The notes below the pieces were generated by a model, which saw only the letters and a list, made by a program, of their open reading frames with translations, had not been told where the DNA came from and did not search any database. 64,000 nucleotides of DNA from Roseivivax isoporae LMG 25204. Lineage in GTDB: Bacteria; Pseudomonadota; Alphaproteobacteria; Rhodobacterales; Rhodobacteraceae. The DNA is taken from positions 1 through 64,000 of the forward strand of contig NZ_JAME01000012.1 in assembly GCF_000521865.1 (NCBI RefSeq). Direction: 5' to 3'. How positions within the stretch are numbered: position 1 is the stretch's first letter; each line of letters begins with the position of its first letter. The position numbers and the translations under genes were made by a program. This document shows, piece after piece, positions 9,002 to 59,648 of this stretch.

Positions 9002-9057
9002 GGAGGGCTGTCCTTTCGGTCGTTGGGCCGGCGGCGCGGTCGGATCGCCTCCGGCGG

Positions 9058-9077
9058 GGATATTTCTGCCAAGAAGA
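9058..9077 (-). repeat. Interspersed 20-mer, copy A
   Basis: On the minus strand this reads TCTTCTTGGCAGAAATATCC, beginning 3 bases after the fumarylacetoacetase stop codon and in the same orientation as the operon. The following CCCGCCGGAGG is shared with copy D. Three more copies lie at 23534, 57371 and 59558. Confidence 0.85.
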
Positions 9078-9080
9078 AGC

Positions 9081-13460: not shown

Positions 13461-13537
<77 letters not shown>

Positions 13538-23533: not shown

Positions 23534-23553
23534 TCTTCTTGGCGGAAATATCC
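23534..23553 (+). repeat. Interspersed 20-mer, copy B
   Basis: TCTTCTTGGCGGAAATATCC on the plus strand, in the gap between the iscR-like gene and the cysteine desulfurase gene (both on the minus strand), so it is antisense to them. A GC hairpin follows 30 bases later at 23583. Confidence 0.85.
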
Positions 23554-23582
23554 CGGGGTGACGGCGCGCCGCACGGCGCGCA

Positions 23583-23599
23583 GAGGGGCAGCGCCCCTC
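23583..23599. other. GC stem-loop next to repeat copy B
   Basis: GAGGGGC and GCCCCTC form a perfect 7-bp stem with an AGC loop, 28 bases beyond the stop of the iscR-like gene. It could act as a weak terminator or processing site. Repeat copy C has a similar hairpin. Confidence 0.4.
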
Positions 23600-23626
23600 G
23601 CGTCCCCGACACGGGCGCGACGGGCC

Positions 23627-57294: not shown

Positions 57295-57370
57295 CCCGTT
57301 CTCGCATTGTGCAGGGGACCCCGCGGCGCGGCGCGCGCCGCAGCCCGGGGGGATCCCGTCCGTCTCGGCT

Positions 57371-57390
57371 TCTTCTTGGCAGAAATATCC
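57371..57390 (+). repeat. Interspersed 20-mer, copy C
   Basis: TCTTCTTGGCAGAAATATCC on the plus strand, between the ppx/gppA stop and the rlmE start (both minus strand), so antisense to both. A GC hairpin follows 8 bases later at 57398. Confidence 0.85.
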
Positions 57391-57397
57391 CGGGAGC

Positions 57398-57416
57398 GCG
57401 AGGGCGGCGCCCTCGC
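57398..57416. other. GC stem-loop next to repeat copy C
   Basis: GCGAGGGC and GCCCTCGC form an 8-bp stem with a 3-base loop, 49 bases beyond the ppx/gppA stop on the minus strand. The partner copy B has the same arrangement. Confidence 0.4.
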
Positions 57417-59521: not shown

Positions 59522-59557
59522 GGCGCGCAGGGCGGGGTGTGCGCCCCGTCCCCGACT

Positions 59558-59577
59558 TCTTCTTGGCGGAAATATCC
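59558..59577 (+). repeat. Interspersed 20-mer, copy D
   Basis: TCTTCTTGGCGGAAATATCC on the plus strand, 36 bases after the HAD gene stop and in its orientation, and downstream of the convergent mfd gene. The following CCCGCCGGAGG is shared with copy A. A short GGGG/CCCC stem precedes it at 59533-59546. Confidence 0.85.
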
Positions 59578-59648
59578 CCGCCGGAGGCAGGCCGCCGCGC
59601 GGTCGCGGGCGCCCGCTCCCCGCCCCGGGCGCCGGCGGCGCGCCCCGC

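Follow-up and report, generated by a model that had tools for sequence, protein, structure and literature searches.

REP sequences are located between the genes of operons and are rare in the gaps between divergent genes. In the puf operon of Rhodobacteraceae, an intercistronic hairpin is present, and we know of no conserved box accompanying it. The DNA uptake sequences (DUS) of Neisseriaceae are spelled in lineage-specific dialects that are tied to the reader ComP, and their inverted pairs are linked with terminators; one dialect has 7153 copies with one mismatch allowed (PMC3630211). In Caulobacter, GapR is described at sites of overtwisted AT-rich DNA at the 3′ ends of genes.

A repeated element of Roseivivax isoporae LMG 25204 was compared with these systems. 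Like REP, REPIN and BIME, it is short, extragenic, hairpin-forming and clade-specific, forms inverted pairs in some genomes, follows stop codons, lies between operon genes and is rare in divergent gaps. Unlike REPs of the GTAG and CGTC families, it carries a long non-palindromic box, shows little decay and includes collinear copies with changed dialect, and no Y1/RAYT transposase was detected in R. isoporae or eight congeners. The likeness to DUS lies in the lineage dialects and the inverted pairs, the differences being that the element has tens of copies, nearly all intergenic, and consists of a box with a free spacer plus a hairpin. As in puf, a hairpin lies between operon genes, puf being one locus. 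With GapR sites the element has in common an AT-rich spot at gene ends of an alphaproteobacterium, whereas GapR prefers AT-rich overtwisted DNA and the element is a strict sequence. The functional analogy that we favour as the best is REP as an operon-internal or post-operon boundary. We give about an even chance to the reading that this is an extragenic two-part element of Rhodobacteraceae, in which a reader-bound box and a transcribed hairpin would together form a REP-like boundary.

Copies in the window and in the genome

The stretch analysed, hereafter the window, covers 64,000 nucleotides, positions 1-64,000 of contig NZ_JAME01000012.1 of R. isoporae (genome G000). The 20-mer TCTTCTTGGCRGAAATATCC was found without mismatch at 9058 (minus), 23534 (plus), 57371 (plus) and 59558 (plus), the same four sites and strands as in the original prediction (4/4, with a chance expectation of 0). 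No further site was detected in the 64-kb window with up to three mismatches, and 100 shuffles gave 0. With respect to gene predictions from a codon model trained on the window, all four copies were intergenic, again as had been claimed. The parts of each copy are as follows.

59550..59577, plus strand: copy 1 head, CCCC-GA-CTTCTTCTTGG-CGG-AAATATCC, in a convergent gap, 36 nt past a plus-strand stop (the 20-mer is 59558-59577)
59578..59588, plus strand: copy 1 tail, type A, CCGCCGGAGGC
57369..57390, plus strand: copy 2 head, CTTCTTCTTGG-CAG-AAATATCC, flanked by two minus-strand genes
57391..57416, plus strand: copy 2 tail, type B, with the hairpin GCGAGGGC-GGC-GCCCTCGC at 57398-57416
23534..23553, plus strand: copy 3 head, TCTTCTTGG-CGG-AAATATCC, flanked by two minus-strand genes
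23554..23601, plus strand: copy 3 tail, type C, with two hairpins, GCGCGCC-GCAC-GGCGCGC and AGGGGC-AGC-GCCCCT
9058..9079, minus strand: copy 4 head, CTTCTTCTTGG-CAG-AAATATCC, the 20-mer beginning 3 nt past a minus-strand stop, flanked by two minus-strand genes
9047..9057, minus strand: copy 4 tail, type A, CCGCCGGAGGC

From translations read by eye, the neighbours of copy 2 are Ppx/GppA-like and then FtsJ/RlmE-like, and those of copy 3 are Rrf2-like and then cysteine desulfurase-like. A search of the whole G000 assembly (4,898,228 bases, 203 contigs) detected 32 exact copies of the 20-mer, 16 on each strand, and 72 copies with up to three mismatches, the reversed control giving 0 in both searches. 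The claim of a frequency far above chance was borne out, and occurrence at chance level can be set aside. When four mismatches were allowed in the DNA around the 72 copies, no extra copy appeared.

Organization of the element

Alignment of the 72 copies indicated that the 20-mer belongs to the front half (head) of a longer element. The head reads YCCC-NN-CTTCTTCTTGG-NNN-AAATATCC, and the unit reaches beyond the 20-mer upstream (YCCC-NN-CT) and downstream (the tail). Conservation of the YCCC lead is only moderate, while bases 1-9 and the last three bases of the 20-mer are identical in all 72 copies. The spacer of three bases takes 18 different triplets among the 72; the base R, originally described as the only variable one, sits within this spacer and is thus not alone. 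Outside the spacer, 7 copies carried a change and 65 carried none. Since the copies were picked by similarity, this invariance is inflated; copies with the consensus spacer had room for three mismatches elsewhere, which was rarely used. The head itself is non-palindromic.

In 67 of the 72 copies a GC-rich, hairpin-capable tail, classed as A, B or C, follows the head. By pattern label, 21 tails were of type A (CCGCCGGAGGC-like), 40 of type B (a GC hairpin, for example CGGGGAGCGCGAGGGGCTGGCCCCTCGC), 6 of type C (two hairpins) and 5 of other types, and near-identical tails recur in several copies. Two results count against the hairpin of the REP-like view. Among 252 tails from G000, from R. jejudonensis CECT 8625 (G002, of the same genus) and from contigs of a named collection, a few of them from outside Rhodobacteraceae, the best hairpin exceeded the 95% score of mononucleotide shuffles in 106, and not more. 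The folds of the four window copies were mostly no better than shuffles, the exception being the plus-strand fold of copy 3 (z −2.14, 4/200 shuffles equally good). As a possible pointer to the transcribed strand, G-T and A-C in the stems were compared, giving 22 and 40 respectively as raw counts uncorrected for base composition. In the predicted folds, the CGG spacer would pair with CCG of the type A tail, and CUUCUUGG with the G-rich bases that open the type B tail; at 57369-57396 of the window (plus strand), the head would pair with the type B start through G-U pairs. At L081, around 2001, a head without the usual tail is followed by a hairpin resembling an intrinsic terminator, AAAGGCCGGG-ACGATG-CCCGGCCTTT.

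Location of copies relative to genes

The copies are situated past stop codons, between tandem or convergent genes, and take both orientations. With respect to the head, both neighbouring genes run against it in 36 of the 72 G000 copies and with it in 19, 14 copies are in convergent and 1 in divergent gaps, and 2 have no left gene; among the 67 copies in 60 loci of G002, 24 are convergent, 23 against, 16 with, 2 divergent and 2 inside an ORF. A strong strand bias after stop codons had been proposed as a sign of a transcript-end role; the with-gene and against-gene counts of the tandem pairs in both genomes do not bear this out, the bias being weak and of opposite sense. For G000 gaps of at least 60 nt, the baseline being the window plus the copy flanks, divergent gaps made up 1/66 with the element and 22/82 without it (Fisher p 7e-6), and in the same set the comparison of convergent with tandem gaps was non-significant (p 0.08).

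Location inside conserved reading frames had been named as an argument against the element. This did not refute it: 69 of the 72 copies are outside predicted ORFs and three fall within them, namely L092 (one of the 36 'against'), L072 and the second copy of L012, the two copies without a left gene being among these three. For two of them the G002 counterparts are also within a predicted ORF, near one end, and for this reason the ORF-internal copies may reflect mispredicted starts or stops.

The positions just past stops, and the common location in convergent gaps (24/67 in G002), recommend the element as a transcription terminator, whether intrinsic, bidirectional or Rho-linked, as does one copy ahead of a SAM-II riboswitch. 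The type A tail of copy 4 together with ATATTT, read backwards, was flagged by a terminator scan, yet the same scan found 7 terminators in 1-20 kb where 7.1 were expected, and flagged none in 44-64 kb, which includes copies 1 and 2 (copy 3 lies outside the scanned stretches). Some copies are also internal to likely operons, for instance the one separating two ABC permease genes and the one ahead of a sarcosine-oxidase-alpha-like gene, which is at odds with termination and has weakened it as the first reading; we regard a terminator as improbable. At the permease site the genes are named, from annotated plasmids, as those of a sugar ABC transporter.

No candidate reader of the element was found among the recurrent neighbour genes across genera, and the ten G000 neighbours that were read are metabolic and housekeeping genes. 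In G125, a single contig, 17 of 23 copies were on the strand opposite the positive-skew strand, with 2 of 25 left out near the presumed switch and the skew estimated by inspection of 20 sampled stretches; this is a weak signal of replication polarity, and gene strand may account for it.

Dialects of the element

In G002 and in R. halodurans JCM 10272 (G008, also of this genus), the end of the head is spelled AAATACTCC. G002 gave 85 matches with up to two mismatches, 55 of them exact among the 74 matches listed, and G008 gave 76, including 60 exact and one with the G000 ending ATATCC (control 1 in G008). The exact 20-mer of G000 was present in none of 40 relatives, and AAATACTCC was absent from G000 with up to one mismatch; these absences are the unselected side of the dialect contrast. 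Among the matches listed, the ACTCC dialect was used in G174 (20/20), G076 (20/20) and G018 (18/18) and the ATCC dialect in G125 (20/20) and G160 (16/17), and both occurred in G095 (15 ATCC and 5 ACTCC) and G124 (12 and 8). Many genomes thus have one main dialect and some have two. Copies in G001 and G006 read CTTCTTCTCGT-NNN and those in G010 CTTCTTYTCTG-NNN, so that the left half varies too.

G009 carries both dialects, in several places as close inverted pairs. At L101 of G009, around 1501, ATATCC and ATACTCC copies stand head-to-head about 50 bases apart and could form a large hairpin, and the coordinates in this genome suggest more head-to-head pairs.

Dialects by lineage and inverted pairs are also described for DUS (PMC3630211), and the element might accordingly be taken for a DNA uptake sequence. 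Against thousands of DUS, it has 72 copies in 4.9 Mb, far from the very high copy number of that class, and just 3 of the 72 are in predicted ORFs; we consider this reading extremely unlikely. Uniform spelling within many genomes, again among the matches listed, could also arise if the repeat were homogenised by gene conversion, with no reader involved, a proposal on which the shared sites below bear directly.

Sites shared between species

The 72 copies of G000 and 67 of G002 were compared, taking as pairs those with the same orientation and both flanks collinear over at least 150 bp each, and 16 pairs were obtained. The bases of the dialect differed in 32 of 32 cells, which is partly circular because the copies of each genome were found with its own dialect; elsewhere in the head, 5 of 256 cells differed. 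Differences were present in 22 of 48 spacer cells and in 95 of 192 cells of the upstream DNA. A search in the opposite orientation gave three pairs, two being cross-matches in a single two-copy gap and one a 68% match, probably between paralogs; orientation therefore seems to be kept.

By eye, the tail type was the same in 14 of the 16 pairs and differed in L069/L199 and L083/L155. The two exceptions could speak for gene conversion; against it stand the 14 retained tails and the spacer, which lies in the middle of the box and would be expected to travel along with it. A spacer left unhomogenised within the box favours selection acting on contacts over gene conversion, which we judge very unlikely.

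The gap upstream of the sarcosine-oxidase-alpha-like gene, named by reading its translation, was examined in 13 genomes, the site being chosen by the gene. An element in the local dialect was present in G000, G002, G006 and G010, the local dialect resting on 2 copies in G006 and 3 in G010. In G008 an atypical head ends in the G000 dialect, and in Mameliella alba a third dialect occurs without a tail. No element was detected at this site in G001, G003, G005 and G009, and nothing clear in G013; the matches in G004 and G007, at 54-55% protein identity, are possibly paralogs. The gap at the permease site measures 114 nt in G000 and 160 nt in G002, the element being present in each, 149 nt without the element in G006, and 13-16 nt in G001, G004, G005, G007 and G008, indicating that sites are gained or lost.

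The short permease gap in these five congeners would suit a REP-like mobile repeat, moved by Y1/RAYT or another single-strand transposase, with dialects arising from new master copies; so would an extragenic, hairpin-bearing and clade-specific nature, near-identical tails in several copies and inverted pairs in some genomes. RAYT mobility was tried as a candidate and rejected on the Y1 profile PF01797, which gave no match in G000-G008, in a search positive in 7 of 41 genomes and in 5 of 14 control genomes. The collinear shared sites, and the 65 of 72 copies unchanged outside the spacer within a whole-genome limit of three mismatches, also oppose it. The small mobile repeat that the original prediction listed among its candidates therefore fits poorly in its simple form, and mobility in the wider sense appears unlikely. 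In being extragenic and repeated, in its location at gene ends and operon gaps and in its tail hairpin, the element agrees with REP/REPIN. It was not filed as a REP, since no Y1 transposase was detected in G000-G008 and the conserved positions between −25 and +26 in the 72 copies include neither a GTAG nor a CGTC tag, the latter being a further point against a mobile repeat.

In three of the 16 pairs (L068/L150, L070/L159 and L012/L175), a stem pair was changed on both sides with pairing kept, and compensatory changes of this kind speak for RNA or single-stranded DNA. Combined with the intercistronic and 3′ positions, they are in keeping with a signal for mRNA processing or stability, in which RNase E would cut the AU-rich box and the hairpin would block exonucleases, giving unequal lifetimes within operons as for the puf hairpin. 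In R. sphaeroides, AU is enriched at a share of RNase E sites (PMC6238624). This AU preference leaves the strict box and the dialects unexplained, and since both orientations occur, the box as transcribed is not the same RNA sequence from site to site; an mRNA signal is conceivable and, in our estimate, rather unlikely.

Possible mode of action

Based on these comparisons, we can propose how the favoured two-part element might act. The head would be a directional bipartite recognition box, composed of the C-rich lead, CTTCTTCTTGG, a free 3-base spacer and AAATAYYCC, and the tail a GC-rich stretch able to form a hairpin. A genome-encoded reader, either a protein or an RNA-guided factor, would bind the box; given its use in both orientations, the box would probably be recognised as duplex DNA, and the sites would track the specificity of the reader. 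The use of both orientations together with the compensatory stems suggests a bound box plus a transcribed hairpin. With less assurance, the two may mark a boundary at transcript ends and in intercistronic gaps, acting in the REP-like manner rather than as an absolute terminator, whether through local supercoiling, by terminating part of the transcripts or by protecting the mRNA segment upstream.

Related genomes spell the element differently even where they share a site, suggesting that it is read by some component of the cell. At single sites, the box is conserved far beyond the spacer and the surroundings. The pattern agrees better with purifying selection plus a trans-acting reader than with passive mobility or with gene conversion; passive repeats would be expected to decay. 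Strict flanks around a free spacer, with a two-base change at shared sites, are what would be expected of the bipartite site of a changing factor. Against a reader stand the partial circularity of the 32/32 count, the two dialects of G009, G095 and G124, the one match of G008 in the G000 dialect, and the exceptions at the sarcosine-oxidase site (G008, Mameliella, G013 and four empty genomes). We put forward only tentatively, below an even chance, that Rhodobacteraceae possess a reader of evolving specificity, for which dozens of boxes per genome would have been rewritten in step while staying in place. This would be a cis-trans dialect system outside competence, marking gene ends or intercistronic gaps in either orientation.

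Distribution in Rhodobacteraceae

With one genome per genus sampled across the family, 137 of 198 contained the form NNAAATAYYCCCGCCGGAGGC, in which AAATAYYCC is joined to the type A tail (reversed control 0), in agreement with the statement in the original prediction that such sequences recur in Rhodobacteraceae. A degenerate form was detected in 32 of 61 genomes including G000, about half of them with few matches (control: 8 matches over 7 genomes); G011, with 11 matches, was left out of later comparisons. Within the genus, G003, G004, G005 and G007 had few or no matches, and the element is therefore dispensable. In the named collection at least 110 stretches matched CTTCTTGGNNNAAATAYYCC, and among 80 with titles, 67 belong by title to genera that we take to be Rhodobacteraceae, 5 are given just as 'Alphaproteobacteria' and 8 are other bacteria.

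No assigned function was found, in line with the original prediction. Rfam gave no match to the element, either in the window at gathering scores or in 16 G000 loci at E up to 1, the only matches being a tRNA and a neighbouring SAM-II; no description was found in the open-access literature, subscription papers and supplements being outside the scope, and the literature matches to short motif strings were all unrelated by title among the matches listed. The element is thus new in the sense of having no Rfam match and no open-access description that we found, and descriptions elsewhere are possible. In a short element present in 137 of 198 sampled genera, conservation site by site goes together with spelling that changes from one species to another. 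Should there be a reader, the differing dialects offer a direct route to finding it, and the family becomes a test case for dozens of binding sites co-evolving with one factor. The element would also be a further candidate for organising transcript ends in GC-rich alphaproteobacteria.

The tRNA gene, at 13464-13537 (minus), is the sole Rfam match of the window at gathering scores. The SAM-II (SAM_alpha) riboswitch is at L001:1585-1664, about 65 bases from an element, which places this copy after the preceding gene and ahead of the riboswitch leader. Among viral contigs, 40 stretches (L323-L362) contain raw pattern matches to CTTCTTGG-N3-AAATAYYCC. A different, longer motif was observed in G003 (L106 and L119, around 1501-1519) and G004 (L125). 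It shares AAATACTCCCGCCGGAGGC, exactly or nearly so, which is followed by a stretch resembling a GC hairpin and by ACGACATGA or a close variant, with TATGAGCCGG ahead of it in G003; it is possibly a leader element.
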